A stretch of 64,000 nt of DNA from Deroplatys truncata (Eukaryota > Arthropoda > Insecta > Mantodea > Mantidae), in contig CM060979.1 of assembly GCA_030765065.1 (NCBI GenBank), positions 106,504,350 through 106,568,349 on the forward strand. Direction: 5' to 3'. Position numbers and translations under genes: made by a program. Below are positions 7,157 to 52,634 of the stretch, piece by piece (the first letter of the stretch is position 1; each line of letters opens with the position of its first letter). Below the pieces are notes generated by a model that was given only the letters and a program-made list of their open reading frames with translations, was not told where the DNA came from and did not search any database.

Positions 7157-8517
7157 CAGGGTTATTCTAAATTAGTTACCTGATAATAAAGCTAAATTAT
7201 ACATAGTTATCTTACGTAGTTTATTTCTGTTTCCATTACATACATTGACATTAACATTAAGTTTTATTTGCATTGTTTACAAATGTTCAATGTGATTCCC
7301 TTTTGTCACTCGGCAGATATCCCACCTGTACGACAGTTCATCTCAGATACGCGTGATCATGTCCGCATCTACCCGAGCTACCGCTACGTTAATTCGTTGA
7401 CGAAGCTCATCGAGATTGATTGAAGTGGAGAGTTGTACACGTTATCTTTAATGTATCCCCAAAGACTGAAATCCAGCGGTGTTAAATCGCGAGATCGTGG
7501 AGGCCAAGCTATGTTCCCGCCACGTCCAATCCAAGCGGGAGTGGTGTGGGATAGGTACGTAGTGACCTCATGGTGGTAATGAGGAGGTGCTCCATCTTGT
7601 TGACAAATGAAATTATCTCTCATATATCCTTGCAACTGTGGCATCAGGTAGTTTTCCAATATATCTAGATATGTGATGCCAGTCACACTCTTCTCATAAA
7701 AAAAGAATGGTCCATACACTTTCACGGAGCTTAGCGCACAGAACACATTCAGTTTTGGTGAGTTACGTGTATGTTCCAGGCATTCGTCGGTTTCTGTGAA
7801 CCCCATATCCTTACATTGTGGCGATTAACTGTACCACTAAGGTGAAAAGTTGCCTCGTCACCGAACACAATCTTATTAAGAAAACTATCGTCTTCTTCCA
7901 TCCTGTTCAGCATGTTCCGCACAGAACTCATAACGTTTAAGCTTGTCATTAGCACTCAATGCCTGAACCAGTTGCAACTTGTACCTCTTACACTGCAGTC
8001 GTTGTCGTAAAATTCTCCATAACGTAGGTTGTGGAATGGACAGCTCCAAACTTGCTCTAGTTGTAGACTTCTTTGGACTTCGTGCATAAGTTCTTCTCAC
8101 GGCTTCCACAACGTGGCCTGCTACAGGAGGGCGTCCCTGTCCTTTCCCTCGGTGTCCCACACAACTTGTTTCTACGAATCGATCATACCATGTTTTGATA
8201 GTTTTCACCTGCGGGGGAGTTTTTTGATACTTTGTACGAAAACGTCTTTGTGTGGTAATTTGCGATTTAGTTTCATGAAACCACAGCCAACACTGCGCGC
8301 GCTCCGCACCGCTGTAAGACTCCATGGCTTCAGGTGTTGCGAGTGCTTCACATTTTCCCCGCCAGACCAGCGAGCGAGTGCATGTAGCGAAGTCTGCCGA
8401 CCATGTTTAAAACTTGATGATATGACATAAGGTTTGATGAACATCGGAATAAATTCCCGTCAACAGTTTCAAAATAATTCATTCATACTTTCAGGTAACT
8501 AATTTAGAATAACCCTG
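7157..8517 (-). mobile_element. Mariner/Tc superfamily DNA transposon with intact ends
   Basis: The element is 1361 bp with perfect inverted repeats of 27 bp beginning CAGGGTTATTCTAAATTAGT, at 7157-7183 and 8491-8517. It is flanked by the TA dinucleotide expected for this superfamily (7155-7156 and 8518-8519). The single transposase gene lies on the minus strand and is broken by two frameshifts, so the copy is dead although the ends remain complete. Confidence 0.93.
7384..8325 (-). pseudogene. Frameshifted mariner-type transposase
   Basis: The reading frame starts at 8325 and encodes a helix-turn-helix DNA-binding region (residues about 10-120, including TIKTWYDRFVETSCVGHRG and PQPTLWRILRQRL). 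A frameshift near 7920 moves the first catalytic block, FGDEATFHLSG, into another frame (7955-7749). A second near 7806 restores the original frame for CQQDGAPPHYH and the WPPRSRDLTPLDFSLWGYIK block. The spacing from the second to the third catalytic Asp is 40 residues. That is longer than in classical mariners (34) and close to the DD41D (rosa-like) group. All three acidic residues can still be seen, but not in one frame. Confidence 0.85.
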
Positions 8518-38302: not shown

Positions 38303-38483
38303 CCTGTGGCGCTACGGCCCCGAAAGGCCCGGGCCTGCCAACCCGCCTCACGCCCACGGCAGAGGTGGGCGATCATCCAACCGATAGGGGAGATGATGTA
38401 TCCCCCAGCCTTAAAGTTGACTCTTGAGGCCAGCACCGCTGCCTATCGTAGCTCCTCACCTTCCTCACGATGCTGAGTGGGCA
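38303..38483 (-). mobile_element. tRNA-derived SINE split by the palindrome, 3' half
   Basis: A GC-rich segment, in + orientation running from TGTGGCGCTACGGCCCCG through CTATCGTAGCTCCTCACC to GATGCTGAGTGGGCA, and then CCGGTC at the junction. The same sequence order (GGCGCTACGGCCC, TAGCTCCTCA, CTGAGTGG) is typical of a tRNA-derived SINE common in some insects. The rest of this SINE, with its B box, lies at 52289-52410 on the far side of the 13.8-kb insertion. Confidence 0.72.
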
Positions 38484-38489
38484 CCGGTC
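38484..38489. repeat. Target-site duplication of the palindromic element, left
   Basis: CCGGTC immediately before the AG that opens the element. It is repeated exactly at 52283-52288, right after the terminal CT. Confidence 0.9.
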
Positions 38490-38519
38490 AGTAGGTTATT
38501 TAGGAGAGATCGAGCGCAG

Positions 38520-39540
38520 TTTTTTGCGTTTATATGGGAAAGGATAGGGAAAACGAGGGTAGATGCGACGGTTCAAGGAGGAAAATGCGTTTATATGGGT
38601 GAGATAGGGAATACGAGGGTTGATGCTAGGCTAGACAGTGGTAGAAGGAGGGGGAATGCGGTTTATATGAGACAGATAGGGAATACGTGGAGAGGTGCTA
38701 GGCTAGACGGAGGCTGAGGAGTAGAGTATGGTTTATATGAAAGGTATAGGAAAACAATGGGAGGTGTTAGGCTAGACAGAGTTGAAGAGAAGAGCATGTC
38801 TTGTATATGAGAGAGGTAGGGAACAGGAGCAGGGGTGTTAGGCTAGACAGAGGTCAAGAAGTAGAGTATGGTTTATATGAAAGGTATAGGAAAACGAGGA
38901 GAGGTGTTAGGCTAGACAGAGTTGAAGGGCAGAGCATGTCTTGTATATGGGAGAGGTAGGGAACAGGAGCAGGGGTGTTAGGCTAGGCAGGGTCAAGAAG
39001 TAGAGAATGGTTTATATGAAAGGTATAGGAAAACGAGGAGAGGTGTTAGGCTAGACAGAGTTGAAGAGCAGAGCATGTCTTGTATATGAGAGAGGCAGGG
39101 AACAGGAGCAGGGGTGTTAGGCTAGGTAGAGGTCAAGAAGTAGAGTATGGTTTATATGAAAGGTATAGGAAAACGAGGAGGGGTGTTAGGCTAGACAGAG
39201 TTGAAGGGTAGAGCATGTCTTGTATATGAGAGATGTAGGGAACAGGAGCAGGGGCGTTAGGCTAGACAGAGGTTGAGAGTAGAGTAGGCGTTTATATGTA
39301 TGAGAAGTATAGAACAGGAGGAGGGGTGTTAGGTTAGACAGAGGTTGAGGAGTAGAGTATAGTTTATATAAGGGTATAGGAAAACGCGGAGAGGTGTTAG
39401 GCTAGACAGAGGTCGAGGAGTAGAGTATGGTTTATATGAGAGGTACAGGGAAACGAGGAGAGTCGCTAGGCTAGACAGATAGTGAAGCAGTAGGAATATG
39501 GACTTATATACAGGAGAGATAGGGAATGGGAGAGGAGGTG
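38520..39540 (+). repeat. ~70-bp tandem array, left arm
   Basis: Units begin GGTGTTAGGCTAGACAGAG. Two types alternate, one with GAGCATGTCTTGTATATGAG and one with GAGTATGGTTTATATGAAAG, giving a 140-bp dimer. The first type appears four times (near 38791, 38931, 39071 and 39211), exactly 140 bp apart. The right arm has it only three times. Confidence 0.92.
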
Positions 39541-39645
39541 TTAGACCTCGAAAGCGACTTTAGATGTGAACTTAGTGGAAAACTGTTTCATGTCAATGTC
39601 CTTGGCATGCACATCACGTAACCCATTCAGGGAAAAGGTAACCAG

Positions 39646-40458
39646 CAAAGGGGAAAAAAGGTGACCAACAAAGGGAAAAAAGGTGACCAGCAAAGGGAAA
39701 AATGTGACCAGCAAAAAGAAAAAGGTGACCAGGAAAGGGAAAAAGGTGACCAGCAAAGGGAAAAAGGTGACCAGCAAAGGGAAAAAGGTAACCAGCAAAG
39801 GGAAAAAGGTGACCAGCAAAGGGAAAAAGGTGACCAGCAAAGGGAAAAAGGTGACCAGCAAAGGGAAAAAGGTGACCAGGAAAGGGAAAAAGGTGACCAG
39901 CAAAGGGAAAAAGGTGACCAGCAAAGGGAAAAAGTGACCAGCAAAGGGAAAAAGGTGACCAGCAAAGGGAAAAAGGTGACCAGCAAAGGGAAAAAGGTGA
40001 CCAGCAAAGGGAAAAAGGTGACCAGGAAAGGGAAAAAGGTGACCAGCAAAGGGAAAAAGGTGACCAGCAAAGGGAAAAAGGTGACCAGCAAAGGGAAAAA
40101 GGTGACCAGCAAAGGGGAAAAGGTGACCAACAAAGGGAAAAAGGTGACCAGCAAAGGCAAAAAGGTGACCAGCAAAGGGAAAAAGGTGACCAGCAAAGGG
40201 AAAAAAGGTGACCTGGAAAGGGCAAAAGGTGACCAGCAAAGGGAAAAATGTGACCAGCAAAGGGAAAAAGGTGACCAGCAAAGGGAAAAAGGTGACCTGC
40301 AAAGGGAAAAAGGTGACCAGCAAAGGGAAAAAGGTGACCAGCAAAGGGAAAAAGGTGACCAGCAAAGGGAAAAAGGTGACCAGCAAAGGGAAAAAGGTGA
40401 CCAGCAAAGGGAAAAAGGTGACCAGCAAAGGGAAAAAGGTGACCAGGAAAGGGAAAAG
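39646..40458 (+). repeat. 21-bp tandem array, left arm
   Basis: About 38 copies of a 21-bp unit, GACCAGCAAAGGG followed by AAAAAGGT, with point variants such as CAGGAAAGGG. Because 21 is a multiple of 3 and the unit lacks stops in most frames, it creates long open frames on both strands (heptapeptides such as DQQREKG or VTSKGKK). These are not genes. Confidence 0.95.
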
Positions 40459-40479
40459 CTAACCCACTCACACTAACAG

Positions 40480-41345
40480 GTAACTAATTCAGTTAGTATC
40501 ACAGGGTAGGACATATCCCGAGGAAGCGGATATAGCATAGTTCCGTATGATGTTGCAGGTAATTCAGAGAGTATCGTAGGTATTTAGGATAATTCAAGTA
40601 ACATAAGTGTTTAGAGTCACTCAGCTAGTATCACAGGAGGATAGCTTCCTGGAGCAGGACGTATCATAGCTGCATATTTTGCACAGGCAATTCAGTTAGT
40701 ATCGGAGGGCATTTAAGCTAATTCAGCTAGTAATACAAGAGACTGACTGCATCATAGCAGTGTATGATTTCACAGGTAATTCAGTTAGTATTGTAGGTAT
40801 TTAGGCTAATTCATCTAGTATCACAGGAGGATAGATTCCAGGGGTTGGGTATAGCATAGTTTCGTATTTCACAGGTACCTCAGCTAGTATCGTAGGTATT
40901 TAGCATAATTCAAGCGTCATAGGTGTTTAGAGTAATTAAGCTAGCATTACAGGAGGGTAGGTTCCAGGGTTGGTTATAACGTAGTTTTCGTATTTTACAG
41001 ATAGTTCAGGTAATATCGTAAGTATTTGGGTAATCAGCATAGTTTCACAGATACTCGTGATAATTTAGATCAGAGACTTGTATCACAGCTATTTAAGGTA
41101 AATGCAGATGATTCAGGTTGTATCAATGGTATTTGAGTCATTTTAACAGGTAATTCATCTAGTATCATTGGTATTTAAGGCAAACCAGATAGTGTCACAG
41201 GTGATCGTGCTAATTTAGAACAGGAATTCGAATCAGAGCTAGTTAAGGTAATTTCACATGATTCGACTAGTATCACAGGTATTTAAGTCATTTTAGCAGG
41301 TAATTCAACTAGTATCACAGGTACTCATGGTAATATAGAGAGTAA
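40480..41345 (+). repeat. Degenerate GTATCACAGG-type tandem array, left arm
   Basis: Recurring AATTCAGYTAGTATCACAGG words alternate with AGGTATTTAGG and GGAGGATAGATTCCAGGG. Copies of the latter lie near 40631, 40821 and 40949. The inner part (41040-41340) has a second variant with TCATTTTAGCAGGTAATTC. Units are diverged and of unequal length (about 90-135 bp). Confidence 0.8.
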
Positions 41346-41725
41346 TTAGATCATAAACATTTCTCATCCAACGTTACAACAATTTATATACTTTTTTCTA
41401 AATCTTACAAACTTATTATATGTTAAACAGTTATAAACTGCAGAGATAAACTGCATATGGCTCACAAATTAAAAAGCTTTGCGTCAACATACCTTTATTT
41501 AAGTTCGTTGTAGGTACCTCTCCCCTTTATCTAGGCTTCAGACTAACACTAGTATTTGCTCCTAATGGCAGGGTTACCACCTTCCCTTCCATCTTACCCT
41601 TTCTTCACCATTTGTCTGCTAGTTACATACACAGCACATGAGTAAACTTTAATTATTCAAATTGTAGACTCGCTGAGAAAATCTTCATCTTCGGGTTACA
41701 TTCTCTTAAGTACTGTTTGTAATAC

Positions 41726-42334
41726 TGTAATGTCCATACGCATAGGTAGTTATTCCATCCTCAGCAATAATTCTTTTATCATCAAAGGGATTCAATGTAA
41801 TTTTATTCACTTGCACTGTGGTAACAGCATGCTTTCGTGATAGGATTAGATTCATGGGCGTTCAGATGATTTCACAGGTTTTAAGACAGTCTGTATAGCT
41901 GTCAAACGAAATGTACTGCTTAATAGCGCTACGTTTTATACCTTTAATCTTTTTATCATTGATCCTTGAATATCTAAGGCATACATCTTAGGACGTAGTC
42001 CAACAAAGCGCAGGATGATTTTGCTATTAGCCTCATCTTTAAATTTCCCCAATACCTTCTTGTTCTGAGTAGAGTAACATATATGGTTGGCAGGATAATC
42101 AGCTGTATCGAGGTGCTCAAGAAAACGTAGCTTGTCCTGGTACACATCTTCAGTTGTTACACGATGAATGAATGAATCAGTGTCCATATACATAAGCTTC
42201 AGATTTTCAGCTCCATAATAAGGCAACAACACGTCGTATTGATAGTGATACATTAATGTCTTGGAGATGTCCAACACACTCATACCAATGAATATAGACT
42301 TGTTGAATACAATCTGACGAGAGGCCATATGTAC
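41726..42334 (-). pseudogene. Protein-primed family B DNA polymerase, fragment B, left arm
   Basis: This is the 3' part of a polymerase gene of the type found in Polinton/Maverick elements, which replicates linear DNA from a protein primer. On the minus strand it reads VHMASRQIVFNKSIFIGMSV, then ISKTLMYHYQYDVLLPYYGA, the catalytic motif C YMDTDSF, and LRFVGLRPKMYALDIQGS. It then shifts frame near 41936. The conserved C-terminal tail (PFDDKRIIAEDG...) survives at about 41726-41791. The exonuclease domain and polymerase motif A are absent. The N-terminal side runs directly into the ~355-bp array. Confidence 0.85.
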
Positions 42335-43265
42335 AGCAGCTACAATGATAGCAGCAATAGATCCTGCAGCTACAGAAACATCACCCGCAGCCTGGACAAT
42401 AGCTGTAACAGAAGCAAATACAATAGCTACCGTAGCAGATACAGCAGCTGTACGACAATAGATGTAACAGATCTTACAGCTGTAGCAACATCTGCCACAA
42501 TAACAGCAGCGACAAACACCAGTTACATAACAGCTGTAGGGGCAGCAGCAGGAAAGATTTAGCACTCTTAGCAATAGCAAGCATCACAGCAAAGATATTC
42601 CAGCTATAGCTTCACCCACCACAGCAACAGCAGTCATCACTCCAGATGTAACATCAAATATGGAGCTGAAGTAGTAGATACAACACTGTAACATCAGCTA
42701 CAGCAATAACAGTATCAGATCAGGTAGCTGTAACAGCATTAGACATAGTCAGCACAATACCTATAGCAGAAGCAAATACAGCAGCTATCGTAGCAGATAC
42801 AGAGACTGTACAACAATAGCTGTAACAGACCCCACAGCTGTAGCAGCATCTGCTATAACAATAGCAGTAGCCGTCGCATTACATAACAACTGCAGCAGCA
42901 GCTAGAGATTTAGCAGTGTTTAGCAATAGCAAGCATCACAGCAATGATATTCCAGCTGTAGATTCCCCTACCACAGCAAAAGCAGTCATCACAACATCAA
43001 CAGTAAATACGACAGATGTAGTATCAGATACAGCATCTATAGCAACAGCAGCTACAACGATAGCAGCAATAGATCCTGCAGCTGTAGCAGCATTAGACAC
43101 AATCAGCACAATAGCTGTAGCAAAAGCAAATACAATTACTATCGTAGCAGATACAGCAGCTGTACAACAATAGATGTAACACATTCTACAGCTGTAGCAA
43201 CATCTGATACAATAATAGCAGAGACAACAACCGGTTACATTACAGATGTAGCAGCAGCTAATCCA
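42335..43265 (-). repeat. ~355-bp tandem array with GCTACAGCTGTA-like subunits, left arm
   Basis: Mirror of 47586-48517. About 2.6 units of roughly 355 bp, each built of degenerate 9-12-bp words such as GCTGCTACAGCTGTA. Open frames (42936-43277 and others) translate to Cys/Tyr- or Ala/Val-rich strings and are not genes. Confidence 0.85.
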
Positions 43266-43546
43266 TTTTTTGTTCAAATGTAACAGCTTTATCAGTTAAA
43301 TCATTGCTTCATTAAACAAGGATTGTAAGGGTAGACGTCTCTTCCCTTTATATAGGCCTGAGACTAACACTAGTATTTGCTCCTAATGACAATGGTTACC
43401 ACCTCCCCTTCCATCTTCTCCTTTCTTCACCATTTGTCTGCTATGTGCATACACAGCACATGAGTAAACATTAATTTTTTAACATTGTAGATTCGCGGAG
43501 ATCATCAAAGGGATTCAATGTAATTTTATTCACTTGCACAGTAGTA
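43266..43546 (-). other. Segment between polymerase fragment A and the ~355-bp array, left arm
   Basis: Mirror of 47305-47585. Read on the minus strand it has GAGCAAATACTAGTGTTAGT and then GCCTATATAAAGGGAAGAG, a TATA-like box. The same segment recurs beside polymerase fragment B with GCCTAGATAAAGGGG, where the TATA is damaged. Confidence 0.6.
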
Positions 43547-44531
43547 TCAGCATGCTTTCATGATAAGATTCATAGGTGTTCTCATGATTTCACAGGTTTT
43601 AGGACAATCAGTATAACTCTCAAATGTAATGTAATGCTTAATAGCACTACGTTTTTTACCCTTAATCTTTTTAACCATTGAGCCGTGGATATCTAAGGCA
43701 TACATCTTAGCTCGTAGTCCGACAAAGCGCTGGATGATTTTATCATTAGCCTCATCTTTAGATTTCCCATGCAATTTGTTTAGAGCTGAATAGCATATAT
43801 AGTTGACAGGGTAATCAGCAGTAATCAGATGTTCAAGTAAACGTAACTTATCCTGTTCCACATCTCAGTTGTTACACGATGAATGAATGAATAAGTATCC
43901 ATATACATAAGCTCCATAATATGATAACAGCACATCGTAATGATGGTGATACATTGTCTCGGAGATGTCCAACACACTCATACCAATGTATACAGGCTTG
44001 TCGAGAGACCATAAATACAACAGCTAGAACAGCAGCATATATCGACCTATCAATAAACGTAGGCTTGGCGATCAGCTTCTCTAGAGTCTTCTCATTTATC
44101 ACCAGTCGTATATCCATACGATCAGGCAGATTCTCCATAGTTTTTCCAAACATGACGTTGTTAAAGAGCTGTAGACGTCCTTCTCGAAATCATTTGCAGC
44201 TTATTGTAGTAGCCTGTTGTTAAATTCCGCATAAGGTTTTAACCACTGTGTCTGTTGGAATTGCAGCACACGATGGATTTTTTAGTCGTAACCCATGATT
44301 AAGAGCTTGATTCAAAGCTATGTAATGTACTACATACTTCTTTCGAGGTCCAAGACGAGGTATCAGTTTCTTTGTATATGATTTCAATGGTTTCATACAC
44401 TCAGGCAGGAAAGGTAGATCGTTAAGTTCTATAGGATGCTCGATGTCTGTGACGTCACACCCAGAGACAGGATGTCTGCCAGTATCAAACACGTTTAAAC
44501 TCGTCTCGTAACTACCTGTATATGCCGTCAC
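43547..44531 (-). pseudogene. Protein-primed family B DNA polymerase, fragment A, left arm
   Basis: This is a second, longer copy of the polymerase 3' half. Blocks seen on the minus strand are KKYVVHYIALNQALNHGLRL (about 44320), FGKTMENLPDRMDIRLV and KTLEKLIAKPTF (44153-44050), a motif C reading YMDTYSF where the second catalytic Asp is Tyr (near 43895), and FVGLRAKMYALDIHGSMVKK (about 43720). At least three frame changes and one in-frame stop separate them. The left arm also lacks one base near 43867 that the right arm keeps. Confidence 0.85.
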
Positions 44532-44810
44532 ATCAACAAGAGAAGTATTCCCACACGCTCATTCAGTCAGATGTTACATTCAAAGCCTACCACCACCCAT
44601 TACACCGAAGCTAGCACAATCTCAAAGGCTTAAAAGGTAACGTAGAAGATTTTCCCCCTTACTTACTTAAATGTGTGTATATACTACATTATTTCATGTT
44701 TTCATTCCCTTTTCAATTCTTCCTTTCCATCTTCTTCTAGAAAGACCATTACATTTCACTACAATCACGAGAAAAGCAATTTTTCCAGAGTTTCACAGAT
44801 TCTAAGCTTC

Positions 44811-46040
44811 AAGAATCGAACCCGCTAATAGTTTTAATAAATGTATTTTTAGTAATTTAGCTCCCTCGCATCAGCATCTACCATTTAATCTTTACTCGAA
44901 CCTGATAGGATTCATAGGCTTGAAGATATATGAAATCACCCCTTCGGGATTCGATCTGAGTACTTTAAAGTACTTTTTGTGATAATAACGATATTTAGGA
45001 ACTAGGTACTCTGTTTACGGTTTACTTGACGTGTCTATATAAATTAGATTACGAGTTATTAAATTTGCAAGTAAATTTCATTAAATCGGTATTCGAACCG
45101 AGAACACCAGGAACAAAATAATTTATAATATTAGCTTGACATGTTAAACAAAGCTGTGTGCAGTTACGCTATCAATCTAAGTGATATATTCTAGTGTACA
45201 GAGGAAAATTAAGGAACTCATTAAAAGATGGGAATCGAACCAAGCACAACTGATTGACAATTATATACAGCATTAATTACCCAGTACAAAACCTATCAAA
45301 CATGCTTTGGCCCACTCCTCTACCTCATTTAGTTCCAGAGATAATGAAGATTTAAAATTAAGAATCGAACTCAGGACACTAGATCCCCAAATATAGATCC
45401 GCAAGAAACTACCTATTGATATAAATGTAATAAAGTTTATTTGACGTCTTTATCTTAAGTAGTTTAGGAGTTATTAAATTTATAATTAAATTACATTTTA
45501 TCGGTATTCGAACCCAGAACACCAGAAACAAAATTATTTATAAAATTAGTTTGCTTCGTTAAAGAGAGTTGTATACAGTTACGCAATCAATCTAAGTGAT
45601 ATATTCTAGTATACAGAGAAAAATTAAGGATATCATTTAAAAATCGGGATTCGAACTAGGGACAACTGATTGAAAATTATATACAGTATTAATTACACAT
45701 TATAACAGCTATCAAACATGCTTTGGTCCATCCCTCTACCTCTATTAGTTTCCGAGATAATGAAGATTTAAAATTAAGGAACGAACCCAGGACTCCAGGT
45801 ATCCAAATGAACATTCAGAAGAAACTACCTAATGATATAAATGTAATAAAATTTATTTGGCGTTTTTATCTTAATTAGTCTCTGAGTTCTTAGAAGTTGA
45901 ATTTGTAATTACTCGTGGGATTCGAACCCAGGCATCCCGGACAACTCCGATTAATATCTCAAGGACGCGGCGCATTCCAAAGAATTTATTAGTTTTTATC
46001 CCATTGTTCTATCTCTTTTCATTCAGCGGGTTCGATTCTA
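44811..46040 (-). repeat. Spacer array of ~139-bp units with B-box-like motifs
   Basis: Motifs of the form GGGATTCGAACCCAGGAC (the inverse of a tRNA gene B box) start near 44811, 44945, 45086, 45228, 45360, 45501, 45644, 45777 and 45914. The steps are 134, 141, 142, 132, 141, 143, 133 and 137 bp. Similarity is strongest at every third unit: GTGATATATTCTAGTRTACAG at 45181 and 45596, and ATAATGAAGATTTAAAATTA at 45341 and 45757. This gives a higher-order period of about 416 bp. The first motif lies in the left arm and its mirror at 46025-46040 in the right arm. No open frame of note. Confidence 0.85.
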
Positions 46041-46319
46041 GAAGCTTAGAATCTGTGAAACTCTGGAAAAATTGCTTTTCTCGTGATTGTAGTGAAATGT
46101 AATGGTCTTTCTAGAAGAAGATGGAAAGGAAGAATTGAAAAGGGAATGAAAACATGAAATAATGTAGTATATACACACATTTAAGTAAGTAAGGGGGAAA
46201 ATCTTCTACGTTACCTTTTAAGCCTTTGAGATTGTGCTAGCTTCGGTGTAATGGGTGGTGGTAGGCTTTGAATGTAACATCTGACTGAATGAGCGTGTGG
46301 GAATACTTCTCTTGTTGAT

Positions 46320-47326
46320 GTGACGGCATATACAGGTAGTTACGAGACGAGTTTAAACGTGTTTGATACTGGCAGACATCCTGTCTCTGGGTGTGACGTC
46401 ACAGACATCGAGCATCCTATAGAACTTAACGATCTACCTTTCCTGCCTGAGTGTATGAAACCATTGAAATCATATACAAAGAAACTGATACCTCGTCTTG
46501 GACCTCGAAAGAAGTATGTAGTACATTACATAGCTTTGAATCAAGCTCTTAATCATGGGTTACGACTAAAAAATCCATCGTGTGCTGCAATTCCAACAGA
46601 CACAGTGGTTAAAACCTTATGCGGAATTTAACAACAGGCTACTACAATAAGCTGCAAATGATTTCGAGAAGGACGTCTACAGCTCTTTAACAACGTCATG
46701 TTTGGAAAAACTATGGAGAATCTGCCTGATCGTATGGATATACGACTGGTGATAAATGAGAAGACTCTAGAGAAGCTGATCGCCAAGCCTACGTTTATTG
46801 ATAGGTCGATATATGCTGCTGTTCTAGCTGTTGTATTTATGGTCTCTCGACAAGCCTGTATACATTGGTATGAGTGTGTTGGACATCTCCGAGACAATGT
46901 ATCACCATCATTACGATGTGCTGTTATCATATTATGGAGCTTATGTATATGGATACTTATTCATTCATTCATCGTGTAACAACTGGAGATGTGGAACAGG
47001 ATAAGTTACGTTTACTTGAACATCTGATTACTGCTGATTACCCTGTCAACTATATATGCTATTCAGCTCTAAACAAATTGCATGGGAAATCTAAAGATGA
47101 GGCTAATGATAAAATCATCCAGCGCTTTGTCGGACTACGAGCTAAGATGTATGCCTTAGATATCCACGGCTCAATGGTAAAAAAGATTAAGGGTAAAAAA
47201 CGTAGTGCTATTAAGCATTACATTACATTTGAGAGTTATACTGATTGTCCTAAAACCTGTGAAATCATGAGAACACCTATGAATCTTATCATGAAAGCAT
47301 GCTTATACTACTGTGCAAGTGAATAA
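46320..47326 (+). pseudogene. Protein-primed family B DNA polymerase, fragment A, right arm
   Basis: Mirror of the left-arm fragment A. The segments are 46320-46570, then a frame change and a TAA at 46648-46650, then 46683-46850 (FGKTMENLPDRMDIRLV), then another frame change and a short deletion before motif C at about 46945 (YMDTYSF). The frame 46874-47326 then runs unbroken through FVGLRAKMYALDIHGSMVKK to KACLYYCASE. This last segment is longer than in the left arm because one base lost there is kept here. Domain order and block wording are those of Polinton-type polymerases. The exonuclease half and motif A are missing. Confidence 0.85.
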
Positions 47327-47585
47327 AATTACATTGAATCCCTTTGATGATCTCCGCGAATCTACAATGTTAAAAAATTAATGTTTACTCATGTGCTGTG
47401 TATGCACATAGCAGACAAATGGTGAAGAAAGGAGAAGATGGAAGGGGAGGCGGTAACCATTGTCATTAGGAGCAAATACTAGTGTTAGTCTCAGGCCTAT
47501 ATAAAGGGAAGAGACGTCTACCCTTACAATCCTTGTTTAATGAAGCAATGATTTAACTGATAAAGCTGTTACATTTGAACAAAAA
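47305..47585 (+). other. Segment between polymerase fragment A and the ~355-bp array, right arm, with TATA-like box
   Basis: It contains AATCCCTTTGATGATC (a remnant of the polymerase tail, shortened compared with fragment B), TTTACTCATGTGCTGTGTAT and CCTATATAAAGGG near 47498. A second version of this segment follows fragment B at 49040-49340. Fragment plus flank was therefore duplicated in tandem before the palindrome formed, or in both arms by conversion. Confidence 0.6.
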
Positions 47586-48517
47586 ATGGATTAGCTGCTG
47601 CTACATCTGTAGTGTAACCGGTTGTTGTCTCTGCTATTATTGTATCAGATGTTGCTACAGCTGTAGAATGTGTTACATCTATTGTTGTACAGCTGCTGTA
47701 TCTGCTACGATAGTAATTGTATTTGCTTTTGCTACAGCTATTGTGCTGATTGTGTCTAATGCTGCTACAGCTGCAGGATCTATTGCTGCTATCGTTGTAG
47801 CTGCTGTTGCTATAGATGCTGTATCTGATACTACATCTGTCGTATTTACTGTTGATGTTGTGATGACTGCTTTTGCTGTGGTAGGGGAATCTACAGCTGG
47901 AATATCATTGCTGTGATGCTTGCTATTGCTAAACACTGCTAAATCTCTAGCTGCTGCTGCAGTTGTTATGTAATGCGACGGCTACTGCTATTGTTATAGC
48001 AGATGCTGCTACAGCTGTGGGGTCCGTTACAGCTATTTTTGTACAGTATCTGTATTTGCTACGATAGCTGCTGTATTTGCTTCTGCTATAGGTATTGTGC
48101 TGACTATGTCTAATGCTGTTACAGCTACCTGATCTGATACTGTTATTGCTGTAGCTGATGTTACAGTGTTGTATCTACTACTTCAGCTCCGTATTTGATG
48201 TTACATCTGGAGTGATGACTGCTGTTGCTGTGGTGGGTGAAGCTATAGCTGGAATATATTTGCTGTGATGCTTGCTATTGCTAAGAGTGCTAAATCTTTC
48301 CTGCTGCTGCCCCTACAGCTGTTATGTAACTGGTGTTTGTCGCTGCTGTTATTGTGGCAGATGTTGCTACAGCTGTAAGATCTGTTACATCTATTGTCGT
48401 ACAGCTGCTGTATCTGCTACGGTAGCTATTGTATTTGCTTCTGTTACAGCTATTGTCCAGGCTGCGGGTGATGTTTCTGTAGCTGCAGGATCTATTGCTG
48501 CTATCATTGTAGCTGCT
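47586..48517 (+). repeat. ~355-bp tandem array with GCTACAGCTGTA-like subunits, right arm
   Basis: Units start near 47591, 47948 and 48300 (357 and 352 bp apart). The third is cut short where polymerase fragment B begins. The internal words resemble GCTGCTACAGCTGTAG. Unit ends share TGATGCTTGCTATTGCTAA. The resulting open frames (47575-47916 and the N-terminal half of 48272-48916) are repeat translations. Confidence 0.85.
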
Positions 48518-49126
48518 GTACATATGGCCTCTCGTCAGATTGTATTCAACAAGTCTATATTCATTGGTATGAGTGTGTTGGACATCTCCAAGACATTAAT
48601 GTATCACTATCATTACGACGTGTTGTTGCCTTATTATGGAGCTGAAAATCTGAAGCTTATGTATATGGACAGTGATTCTTTCATTCATCGTGTAACAACT
48701 GAAGATGTGTACCAGGACAAGCTACGTTTTCTTGAGCACCTCGATACAGCTGATTATCCTGCCAACTATATATGTTACTCTACTCAGAACAAGAAGGTAT
48801 TGGGGAAATTTAAAAATGAGGCTAATAGCAAAATCATCCTGCGCTTTGTTGGACTACGTCCTAAGATGTATGCCTTAGATATTCAAGGATCAATGATAAA
48901 AAGATTAAAGGTATAAAACGTAGCGCTATTAAGCAGTACATTTCGTTTTGACAGCTATACAGACTGTCTTAAAACCTGTGAAATCATCTGAACGCCCATG
49001 AATCTAATCCTATCACGAAAGCATGCTGTTACCACAGTGCAAGTGAATAAAATTACATTGAATCCCTTTGATGATAAAAGAATTATTGCTGAGGATGGAA
49101 TAACTACCTATGCGTATGGACATTAC
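48518..49126 (+). pseudogene. Protein-primed family B DNA polymerase, fragment B, right arm
   Basis: Opens VHMASRQIVFNKSIFIGMSV in the same frame as the preceding repeat. It has motif C as YMDSDSF, KFKNEANSKIILRFVGL and YALDIQGSMIKRLK, then loses frame near 48916. The C-terminal tail FDDKRIIAEDGITTYAYGHY is at 49067-49126. Compared with the left arm it has Ser for Thr in motif C, Asn for Asp in KFKNEA, and His for Gln in HYHYD. It is not functional: no N-terminal half and a broken frame. Confidence 0.85.
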
Positions 49127-49504
49127 AGTATTACAAACAGTACTTAAGAGAATGTAACCCGAAGATGAAGATTTTCTCAGCGAGTCTACAGTTTAAATAA
49201 TTAAAGTTTACTCATGTGCTGTGTATGTAACTAGCAGACAAATGGTGAAGAAAGGGTAAGATGGAAGGGAGGGTGGTAACCCTGCCATTAGGAGCAAATA
49301 CTAGTGTTAGTCTGAAGCCTAGATAAAGGGGAGAGGTACCTACAACGAACTTAAATAAAGGTATGTTGACGCAAAGCTTTTTAATTTGTGAGCCATATGC
49401 AGTTTATCTCTGCAGTTTATAACTGTTTAACATATAATAAGTTTGTAAGATTTAGAAAAAAGTATATAAATTGTAACGTTGGATGAGAAATGTTTATGAT
49501 CTAA

Positions 49505-50370
49505 TTACTCTCTATATTACCATGAGTACCTGTGATACTAGTTGAATTACCTGCTAAAATGACTTAAATACCTGTGATACTAGTCGAATCATGTGAAATT
49601 ACCTTAACTAGCTCTGATACGAATTCCTGTTCTAAATTAGCACGATCACCTGTGACACTATCTGGTTTGCCTTAAATACCAATGATACTAGATGAATTAC
49701 CTGTTAAAATGACTCAAATACCATTGATACAACCTGAATCATCTGCATTTACCTTAAATAGCTGTGATACAAGTCTCTGATCTAAATTATCACGAGTATC
49801 TGTGAAACTATGCTGATTACCCAAATACTTACGATATTACCTGAACTATCTGTAAAATACGAAAACTACGTTATAACCAACCCTGGAACCTACCCTCCTG
49901 TAATGCTAGCTTAATTACTCTAAACACCTATGACGCTTGAATTATGCTAAATACCTACGATACTAGCTGAGTTACCTGTGAAATACGAAACTATGCTACA
50001 CCCAACCCCTGGAATCTATCCTCCTGTGATACTAGATGAATTAGCCTAAATACCTACAATACTAACTGAATTACCTGTGAAATCATACACTGCTATGATG
50101 CAGTCAGCCTCTTGTAATACTAGCTGAATTAGCTTAAATGCCCTCCGATACTAACTGAATTGCCTGTGCAAAATATGCAGCTATGATACGTCCTGCTCCA
50201 GGAAACTATCCTCCTGTGATACTAGCTGAGTGACTCTAAACACGTATGTTACTTGAATTATCCTAAATACCTACGCTACTCTCTGAATTACCTGCAACAT
50301 CATACGGACTATGCTATATCCGCTTCCTCGGGATATGTCCTACCCCGTGATACTAACTGAATTACTTACC
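49505..50370 (-). repeat. Degenerate GTATCACAGG-type tandem array, right arm
   Basis: Mirror of 40480-41345: inverse words CCTGTGATACTAGCTGAATT recur irregularly. Confidence 0.8.
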
Positions 50371-50391
50371 TGTTAGTGTGAGTGGGTTAGC

Positions 50392-51275
50392 TTTTCCCTT
50401 TCCTGGTCACCTTTTTCCCTTTGCTGGTCACCTTTTTCCCTTTGCTGGTCACCTTTTTCCCTTTGCTGGTCACGTTTTTCCCTTTGCTGGTCACCTTTTT
50501 CCCTTTGCTGGTCACCTTTTTCCCTTTGCTGGTCACCTTTTTCCCTTTGCTGGTCACGTTTTTCCCTTTGCTGGTCACCTTTTTCCCTTTGCTGGTCACC
50601 TTTTTCCCTTTGCAAGTCACCTTTTTCCCTTTGCTGGTCACCTTTTTCCCTTTGCTGGTCACCTTTTTCCCTTTGCTGGTCACCTTTTTCCCTTTCCAGG
50701 TCACCTTTTTTCCCGTTGCTAGTCACCTTTTTCCCTTTGCTGGTCGCCTTTTTGCCTTTGCTGGTCACCTTTTTCCCTTTGCTGGTCACGTTTTTCCCTT
50801 TGCTGGTCACCTTTTTCCCTTTCCTGGTCACCTTTTTCCCTTTCCTGGTCACCTTTTTCCCTTTGCTGGTCACCTTTTTCCCTTTGCTGGTCACCTTTTT
50901 CCCTTTGCTGGTCACCTTCTTCCCTTTCCTGGTCACCTTTTTCCCTTTGCTGGTCACCTTTTTCCCTTTCCTGGTCACCTTTTTCCCTTTGCTGGTCACC
51001 TTTTTCCCTTTGCTTGTCACCTTTTTCCCTTTGCTGGTCACCTTTTTCCCTTTCCTGGTCACCTTTTTCCCTTTCCTGGTCACCTTTTTCCCTTTGCTGG
51101 TCACCTTTTTCCCTTTGCTGGTCACCTTTTTCCCTTTGCTGGTCACCTTTTTCCCTTTGCTGGTCACCTTTTTCCCTTTCCTGGTCACCTTTTTCTTTTT
51201 GCTGGTCACATTTTTCCCTTTGCTGGTCACCTTTTTTCCCTTTGCTGGTCACCTTTTTTCCCCTTTGCTGGTTAC
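50392..51275 (-). repeat. 21-bp tandem array, right arm
   Basis: Inverse of the left 21-bp array, about 42 units, roughly three more than on the left. Variants (CCTGG for GCTGG, CACG for CACC) do not sit at the same places as in the left arm, so the two arrays have changed separately. Confidence 0.95.
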
Positions 51276-51372
51276 CTTTTCCCTGAATGGGTTACGTGAT
51301 GGGCATGCCAAGGACATTGACATGAAACAGTTTTCCACTAAGTTCACATCTAAAGTCGCTTTCAAGGTCTAG

Positions 51373-52250
51373 CACCTCATCTCCTATTCCCTATCTCTCC
51401 TGTATATAAGTCCATATTCCTACTGCTTCACTATCTGTCTAGCCTAGCGACTCTCCTCGTTTCCCTGTACCTCTCTTATAAACCATACTCTACTCCTCGA
51501 CCTCTGTCTAGCCTAACACCTCTCCGCGTTTTCCTATACCCTTATATAAACTATACTCTACTCCTCAACCTCTGTCTAGCCTAACACCCCTCCTCCTGTT
51601 CTATACTTCTCATACATATAAACGCCTAGTCTACTCTCAACCTCTGTCTAGCCTAACACCCCTGCTCCTGTTCCCTACATCTCTCATATACAAGACATGC
51701 TCTACCCTTCAACTCTGTCTAGCCTAACACCCCTCCTCGTTTTCCTATACCTTTCATATAAACCATACTCTACTTCTTGACCTCTACCTAGCCTAACACC
51801 CCTGCTCCTGTTCCCTACCTCTCTCATATACAAGACATGCTCTGCTCTTCAACTCTGTCTAGCCGAACACCTCTCCTCGTTTTCCTATACCTTTCATATA
51901 AACCATTCTCTACTTTTGACCCTGCCTAGCCTAACACCCCTGCTCCTGTTCCCTACCTCTCCCATATACAAGACATGCTCTTCCCTTCAACTCTGTCTAG
52001 CCTAACACCTCCCATTGTTTTCCTATACCTTTCATATAAACCATACTCTACTCCTCAGCCTCCGTCTAGCCTAGCACCTCTCCACGTATTCCCTATCTGT
52101 CTCATATAAACCGCATTCCCCCTCCTTCTACCACTGTCTAGCCTAGCATCAAACCTCGTATTCCCTATTTCACCCATATAAACGCATTTTCCTCCTTGAA
52201 CCGTCGCATCTACCCTCGTTTTCCCTATCCTTTCCCATATAAACGCAAAA
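51373..52250 (-). repeat. ~70-bp tandem array, right arm
   Basis: Inverse of the left array. The CAAGACATGCTCT type occurs three times (near 51691, 51831 and 51969), one fewer than on the left, which accounts for the 141-bp difference. Confidence 0.92.
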
Positions 52251-52282
52251 AACTGCGCTCGATCTCTCCTAAATAACCTACT

Positions 52283-52288
52283 CCGGTC
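52283..52288. repeat. Target-site duplication of the palindromic element, right
   Basis: CCGGTC directly after the terminal CT of the element. Exact match to 38484-38489. Confidence 0.9.
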
Positions 52289-52410
52289 CTATACCTGGAA
52301 CCTAAAAACCGCACCACCATGGGCGGGATCGAACCCGGGCGCATTCGTGGCCGGGAACCAGAGCAGCACGATCCAGCCTAGGCGCAGGACAGTTTCTGGT
52401 GCTATTCCTG
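52289..52410 (-). mobile_element. tRNA-derived SINE split by the palindrome, 5' half
   Basis: Follows on from 38303-38489 once the insertion and one CCGGTC are removed: CTATACCTGGAACCTAAAAA, then CCATGGGCGGGATCGAACCC, whose inverse is a B box (GGGTTCGATCCCGC). The A-box part is presumably in GGGAACCAGAGCAGCACG. The transcribed strand is the minus strand. Confidence 0.72.
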
Positions 52411-52634
52411 GGCTTAGAAGAGGGGTTTGGGCTTTGGCTCTTACCCCGGTAGACCTTTGCTCAACAACACATTGTCTACTTCTATTTAATACAAGTAAAC
52501 CTTCATCACTCATTTATACATTTTGTTGTAGATGTAAGAAGAATGCAGTAAGTTAAGGAGAAGGCCAAATCTTTTCAAAGCTGGTCGTCATGGGATGCCT
52601 TTTAAATTCTGTTCTCTTTGCATAAACCAAAAAT
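52411..52634. other. Short unrecognised stretch
   Basis: Sequence between the SINE and the next CTTTCTCTAC-family copy. Nothing recognised. Confidence 0.5.

Follow-up and report, generated by a model that had tools for sequence, protein, structure and literature searches.

Giant palindromes related to Polintons in the genome of the mantis Deroplatys truncata: a candidate class of hairpin replicon

The palindrome and its insertion site

The window analysed here is a stretch of 64,000 nucleotides from the mantis Deroplatys truncata (assembly GCA_030765065.1, contig CM060979.1, positions 106,504,350 to 106,568,349). It carries a palindrome of about 13.8 kb at 38490-52282 that begins with AGTAGGTTATTTAGGAG... 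from 38490 and finishes with ...CTCCTAAATAACCTACT up to 52282 (AGTAGG.../...CCTACT), with AG/CT tips and an exact CCGGTC on either side. An earlier note, made from the letters of the window, had described this palindrome with its ends and duplications, and the description holds; the start and end given there included the duplications. The element is probably a decayed copy of a palindromic Polinton derivative, doubled head to head, whose arms are homogenised each time it replicates in the form of a giant hairpin. Its features are as follows:

38484..38489 (no strand): target-site duplication CCGGTC, left, 6 bp (direct sequence; once joined, the flanks match unbroken repeats elsewhere)
38490..44829 (+): palindrome, left arm (6340 bp) (BLAST self-alignment; pairwise alignment)
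38490..38639 (+): conserved terminus AGTAGGTTATTTAGGAGAGATCGAGCGCAG..., 143/150 bases the same as in a diverged subfamily (L044)
38664..39479 (+): 140/279-bp tandem satellite, left arm
39629..40457 (+): left-arm minisatellite, 39 copies of 21 bp
41939..42223 (-): left arm, piece of the polymerase C-terminus, motif YMDTDS (corresponds to the C-terminal part of open frames in sister copies)
42333..43258 (+): 354-bp GCA-rich tandem repeat within the scrambled polymerase region, left arm; found in the window's class
43550..43864 (-): left arm, second piece of the polymerase C-terminus, diverged
43875..44189 (-): left arm, piece of the polymerase palm (LFNNVMFGKTMEN)
44223..44558 (-): left arm, polymerase piece from upstream of the palm
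44830..46020 (no strand): "spacer", 1191 bp, equal to inner left arm; right-arm partner and axis loop missing
46021..52282 (-): palindrome, right arm (6262 bp) (BLAST self-alignment; pairwise alignment)
46293..46628 (+): right-arm mirror of 44223-44558
46662..46976 (+): right-arm mirror of 43875-44189
46874..47323 (+): mirror polymerase C-terminal fragment, YMDTYS, right arm
48269..48913 (+): right-arm mirror of 41939-42583
50392..51284 (-): right-arm minisatellite, 42 copies of 21 bp
51434..52110 (-): right-arm tandem satellite, 140/278 bp
52283..52288 (no strand): target-site duplication CCGGTC, right, 6 bp (direct sequence)

In the BLAST self-alignment, the arms are 98.5% identical over the inner 5.2 kb, and the next two alignments outward stand at 96.1% and 92.7%; per block of 250 bp, the aligned bases agree at 97-100%. 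The satellites, with unit lengths of 140, 21, 126, 150 and 354 bp, are as they had been described. The middle had been taken for a spacer of 1198 bp, a size that was nearly right, but it reads as a remnant of the inner arm rather than a true spacer. Since each arm of two sister copies (L009 and L017) holds this same sequence, on either side of a short loop at the centre, the spacer is by this comparison inner left-arm sequence whose right-arm partner was lost in a one-sided deletion at the axis. The axis pattern of other copies was searched for in the window element and not found.

On their own, the broken polymerase pieces give no convincing Pfam match and nothing useful in PHROGs, PDB, phage or IMG/VR searches. 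The same sequence recurs in open polymerase genes of sister copies, the middle piece of which matches PF03175, and the pieces can therefore be read as family B polymerase, as had been proposed.

All genome-wide searches were made in the source assembly (4.29 Gb). When the two flanks of the window element are joined, 38 of the 40 scored matches (of 4246 candidates) cross the junction at 81-87% identity; the remaining two are the flanks in the window itself. Because the joined flanks match uninterrupted repeats elsewhere, the element is, on this evidence, inserted whole into a dispersed repeat. The target repeat (38340-38489 and 52289-52438) contains a GATCGAACCCGGGC stretch, which we take to resemble a tRNA B box, and is possibly a tRNA-derived short interspersed element (SINE).

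A family of palindromes

The first 300 bp of the window element gave 40 scored matches (the best of 5117 candidates), many as inverted pairs. Its terminal 22-mer occurs exactly at 249 places (127 + 122) and its backward-read control at none, which excludes a chance origin. Among 100 of these places that were listed, 37 +/- pairs face each other, at a median distance of 17,012 bp. By the sequence searches, the family numbers at least several hundred copies.

From the best 40 tip matches, ten copies were fetched with both ends, as well as the left part of one more (L028, also E11, one arm). All ten are palindromes, and their arms, some 4 to 9 kb long, reach the axis. The 6-bp duplication is exact in eight of them, carries one mismatch in another and is ambiguous by a one-base shift in the last. 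Four of the 11 further copies belong to the window's class (L009, L011, L017 and L023), six have about 2.9 kb extra per arm (L013, L015, L019, L021, L025 and L028) and one is of a shorter class (L027). The palindromic state is common to all 11 copies examined at both ends, with arms homogenised per copy, and is no single event of the window copy.

A second subfamily has the tip AGTAGGATATAT. Thirty pairs of its ATATAT-type tips, taken in listing order from those among 100 listed places (L046-L105), have exact 6-bp duplications in 27 cases, a single mismatch in two and none in one. The duplications are exact at 6 bp and at no other length, and 26 of them are distinct; left and right ends taken from different copies match in only 3 of 870 cross-pairs. 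The earlier note had proposed a search for further copies with 6-bp duplications of their own, and had named an empty result beforehand as speaking against it. The many copies found (8/10 and 27/30), together with the empty sites, support its view of a Polinton-derived element that was mobile as a unit.

Giant inverted repeats are a known type of assembly artefact, arising from fold-back chimeric reads. Such an origin has a negligible probability here, in view of exact duplications in 27 of 30 copies (26 distinct), the empty sites, and arms that differ from each other by 0-1.6% across most elements.

At the centre of the second-subfamily duplications is a pyrimidine-purine step, with C or T at position 3 in 26 of 27 and A or G at position 4 in 25 of 27; judged from these sequences, it is a target preference of the integrase. 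A preference for CG was also considered and rejected, as it was present in 6/11 of the first set and far weaker (4/27) in the independent set.

For one member of the second subfamily, L044, the reading covered the left 7 kb and both tips. Its first 150 bp differ from the window's at seven positions, and the polymerases of the two subfamilies stand at a synonymous divergence (dS) of 0.2. Because the tips differ so little despite this polymerase divergence, they look constrained.

Two rearranged copies were also seen. At C7:201075087, 201082245 and 201085287, three tips (one + and two -) lie within about 10 kb, forming a nested or rearranged palindrome. The left arm of L025 lacks window offsets 452-2666, which are partly kept in the right arm (L026), a one-sided deletion away from the axis.

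The polymerase gene

In the better-kept copies, each arm carries a polymerase gene that points away from the axis. The left arms of L021 and L025 have open frames of 1226 and 1225 residues, and in the other four copies of the larger class the frame is in two to four pieces. The middle piece of the L025 frame matches PF03175 (DNA_pol_B_2, E=9.8e-13) and PF02945 (Endonuclease_7, E=3.1e-6). The palindrome polymerase has DFE, NLSGYD and YMDTDS motifs, presumably those of the Polinton-type family B polymerases, and is about 26-28% identical to the polymerase of an ordinary Polinton in the same genome, with which its C-terminal part aligns. A 495-residue piece of the open frame had no relative in IMG/VR, PDB or phages.

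The mirror arrangement recurs across the genome. Endonuclease VII matches fall into 52 -/+ neighbour pairs (104 of 150 scored, the best of 6896 candidates) with a median spacing of 7,114 bp, many of them with 1225-residue frames on both sides. Matches to the polymerase C-terminus likewise form 45 -/+ pairs (90 of 133 scored, of 22,325 candidates; median 10,219 bp). A 26-mer inside the gene occurs exactly at 1579 places (784 + 795; control 0), and 84 of the first 100 places listed are in 42 -/+ pairs, with no +/- pair and one same-strand neighbour pair. As a control, matches to the integrase of ordinary Polintons include no -/+ pair and one +/- pair among 112 scored. In the C105 copy, the arms are 99.88% identical about an axis, and its polymerase identity is about 93.6%.

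The ratio of nonsynonymous to synonymous divergence (dN/dS) of the polymerase is 0.09-0.22 between subfamilies, so that the gene is, by this measure, under purifying selection there. Within the window's subfamily the values are 0.64 and 0.40, as expected of copies that drift after insertion. The earlier note had called the element non-autonomous and satellite-bearing. It appears to be non-autonomous for integration, as far as is visible, but fuller copies have an open, selected polymerase in each arm.

The palindromes might instead be recurrent defective genomes, formed in a snap-back-like manner from a complete, non-palindromic Polinton with the same polymerase. Adenovirus is known to form snap-back defective genomes. 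Panhandle-shaped intermediates are known for protein-primed plasmids, according to the part of PMC1864894 available. Complete-looking Polintons do exist in this genome, and the 16 of 100 listed polymerase places that lack a mirror partner could include a donor. Against this stand the 84 places in mirror pairs with a single same-strand neighbour pair, the selection on the polymerase between palindromic subfamilies, and the axis sequences common to copies and the tip common to subfamilies, which make the palindrome look inherited. A recurrent origin of this kind is improbable.

Genes not found in the arms, and the ordinary Polintons

No integrase-like frame was seen by eye among the open frames of at least 110 residues in eight loci. 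Packaging ATPase, protease and capsid genes were likewise found neither among the open frames of these loci nor by Pfam in 10 of the 12 frames of L021. Pfam is weak for morphogenesis genes, since it did not detect the presumed frames for capsid, protease and ATPase in a local ordinary Polinton either, and the lack of open frames therefore weighs more. For PF04665, 150 of 1207 candidates were scored, and 38 of these were weak matches above the cut-off (best E 3e-5); 13 were on contigs with listed tips, and none lay within 25 kb of the 100 listed tips. The earlier statement that no other Polinton gene is visible thus stands for the arms, within the open frames of eight loci and the Pfam search of one copy.

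An ordinary, complete-looking Polinton was read piecewise at C3:71460888-71478149 (L041-L043). It encodes a 1281-residue polymerase, a dUTPase, further frames and an integrase with RVE and chromo domains (PF00665, 1.9e-16; PF00385, 8.2e-9), and has inverted repeats of 153 bp by BLAST, the tip AGTAGT and the duplication GTTAAC. Of 11,715 candidate relatives of its integrase, 112 were scored, 93 of them free of inner stops, and near-identical ones lie elsewhere in the genome. Insertion of the palindromes with 6-bp duplications is best explained by a Polinton integrase acting in trans.

Elsewhere in the window, an open frame at 7888-8406 on the minus strand has a DUF4817 match above the cut-off and weaker matches to Tc/mariner-type helix-turn-helix domains. 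It is probably a fragment of a mariner-like transposon.

Evolution of the arms and the axis

Relationships among arms were compared in six unique arm segments from 11 elements. Only rows that covered at least 85% of a segment were kept (90% in an earlier comparison), which left 29 element-by-segment tests. In 28 of the 29, an element's two arms are sisters, the exception being the first polymerase segment of E7. The two arms of one element privately share 159 sites, and nine sites pair each arm with another element. With that exception, the comparisons show that the arms of each element share their latest ancestor within that element. Copying as a duplex would keep arm lineages through transposition; sister arms were found instead, and the arms would thus be homogenised within each copy. 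The structure that defines each class also sits in both arms.

The homogenisation could have taken place after insertion. Inverted arms of sex-chromosome palindromes are homogenised by gene conversion, and an element copied as an ordinary double strand could have its arms evened out in the same way. This expects the two arms to be more alike than either is to any other copy. In eight of 11 elements, the arms are closer mutually than to the nearest copy in at least one segment, which conversion would also give. In E2, E5, E6, E8 and E10 the two arms differ far less from one another than from any other copy (L017/L018: 99.98% over 5845 bp), and youth or conversion would both explain this. In the window copy, arm identity climbs toward the axis (25 mismatches in 2500 bp vs 5 in 1966, p=0.0026), which suggests some conversion between arms.

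However, dominant conversion would hold the arms close throughout. The arms of E3 (L013/L014) differ by 1.1-1.6%, whereas the nearest other copy is at 0.84-1.25%, and yet they are sisters. In some segments of W, E1 and E7, arm divergence is about equal to divergence from other copies, again with sister arms except in the one E7 segment. Because their arms have diverged as far as, or in E3 farther than, from their nearest relatives, post-insertion conversion is, by these measures, not dominant in these four elements. One-sided axis deletions also persist in four copies (the window copy, L011, L015 and L023), each with its own end point, and look to have arisen after insertion. Gene conversion as the main cause is thus unlikely, although it deserves to be taken seriously.

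The axis itself is a non-palindromic loop of about 80 nt between stems. In the seven copies with both stems, these agree at 12-15 of 15 positions within a copy and at a mean of 10.5 of 15 between copies. The stems of L009, L013, L017, L019, L025 and L028 start with AGTAG, like Polinton tips; exceptions are AGTAC on one side of L028 and AAAAG in L021. The axis may go back to a small insertion bounded by tips, from which the palindrome was seeded. The loop also holds CTAATTAG motifs. Flip-flop of the loop was considered and rejected, since its two orientations merely reflect the orientation in which a symmetric element was inserted.

A proposed palindromic hairpin replicon

From the copies compared, the full form of the element is about 17 kb long, with two mirror arms of about 8.5 kb around the non-palindromic loop. 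From axis to tip, each arm holds one outward-reading polymerase gene, subterminal satellites and the conserved AGTAGG terminus. Insertion as a unit with 6-bp duplications, and an open, selected polymerase in both arms, are shown by the comparisons among copies.

The reading that probably accounts for these features is that of a palindromic Polinton derivative homogenised as a hairpin. Fold-back priming at short inverted repeats is known to yield large palindromes, and the palindrome probably arose by fold-back at the short inverted repeat still seen at the axis. As expected from its family, the polymerase would start copying at the two identical tips, with a protein as primer. Every single strand would then form one giant hairpin from tip to axis, in which differences between the arms would become stem mismatches, to be repaired or lost by fold-back copying before a new copy is inserted. 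For insertion, ordinary Polintons of this genome would supply their integrase in trans, and it would act on the AG...CT ends. Once inserted, the arms would drift apart and the axis would lose sequence on one side, as it has in the window copy. For Polintons and casposons, a panhandle intermediate that is single-stranded and copied by PolB has been put forward, at least in the part of PMC4046053 available.

Several points weigh against this reading, besides the closeness of arms in eight elements and the rise in identity toward the axis. The hairpin, the protein priming and the helper are all things that we infer. No Pfam match was obtained for the C-terminal 395 residues of the polymerase, the identity of which rests on the motifs and the alignment to the local Polinton, and there are the 16 listed polymerase places without a mirror partner. 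Pfam found no integrase or transposase in 10 of 12 frames from the non-polymerase parts of the L021 arms, and a short or novel integration gene is possible. Finally, the tip of the single ordinary Polinton examined has only AGTAG in common with the palindromes, and no specific helper is therefore named.

The broader proposal is more tentative. The palindromes may represent a distinct class of self-copying transposon, a single-gene hairpin replicon with two gene copies that are mutually repaired in each cycle and a satellite-like use of the Polinton integrase. If so, the polymerase gene would be its own backup, and a satellite-helper relation between transposons that share one integrase would follow. 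Long palindromes are normally held to be unstable; here, a Polinton would have been stripped to its polymerase and ends, mirror-doubled, and yet have spread to at least several hundred copies. The family also offers a test of protein-primed copying that can be read from sequence, since a single-stranded folded intermediate predicts arms homogenised in each cycle, and the trees agree.

Comparison with known systems

No description of palindromic PolB elements was found among the 5 to 20 papers listed per search (of up to 926) in the literature searched, which included few subscription journals, did not take in bioRxiv as such and lay outside Repbase and Dfam. The parts are known, and it is the combination that appears new to that literature: a coding palindrome with its gene twice, at least several hundred copies, homogenised arms and borrowed integration.

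The earlier note had drawn a parallel to the Tlr elements of Tetrahymena, citing them for long inverted repeats with tandem repeats. This parallel is weak, as Tlr encodes a helicase in place of pPolB, going by the part of PMC4028283 available.

Foldback and Galileo elements offer a similar architecture, in which copies are nearly all inverted repeat with subterminal tandem repeats; Galileo terminal inverted repeats reach 4.2-4.7 kb with tandem repeats of about 140 bp, as far as the available part of PMC4168063 goes. The palindromes might then have formed by growth of terminal inverted repeats until these filled the element, with no part played by hairpin replication. However, Galileo belongs to the P superfamily and makes 7-8-bp duplications (same part of PMC4168063), and its long arms are without transposase, whereas here the enzyme is a family B polymerase with coding sequence retained in both arms. 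The duplications of the palindromes are of 6 bp only, and no transposase match was found in the L025 frame or in 10 of 12 L021 frames. Growth of this type is very improbable.

Invertrons and the defective palindromes of adenovirus have partial end repeats or are transient defective genomes; the palindrome here is chromosomal and multicopy. Protein-primed linear plasmids (invertrons) resemble it in being minimal, polymerase-bearing replicons with inverted ends and panhandle forms, according to the available part of PMC1864894.

The nearest relatives are the Polintons or Mavericks. A Maverick PolB with an endonuclease VII domain is on record, with weak E values of 0.02 and 0.32, in the part of PMC5803895 available. 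The palindromes differ from Polintons in having no detected integrase, ATPase, protease or capsid genes, in carrying the polymerase twice, and in an inverted repeat that is nearly the whole element, compared to 153 bp in the local ordinary Polinton. In Polintons, AG...CT termini are a family feature and terminal inverted repeats are some hundreds of bases long. Because the integrase, the morphogenesis genes and the short end repeats were looked for and not found, the family is, on present comparisons, a Polinton derivative and not a Polinton proper. What it shares with them is a related family B polymerase (PF03175), 6-bp duplications, AG...CT tips and a length of about 17 kb.

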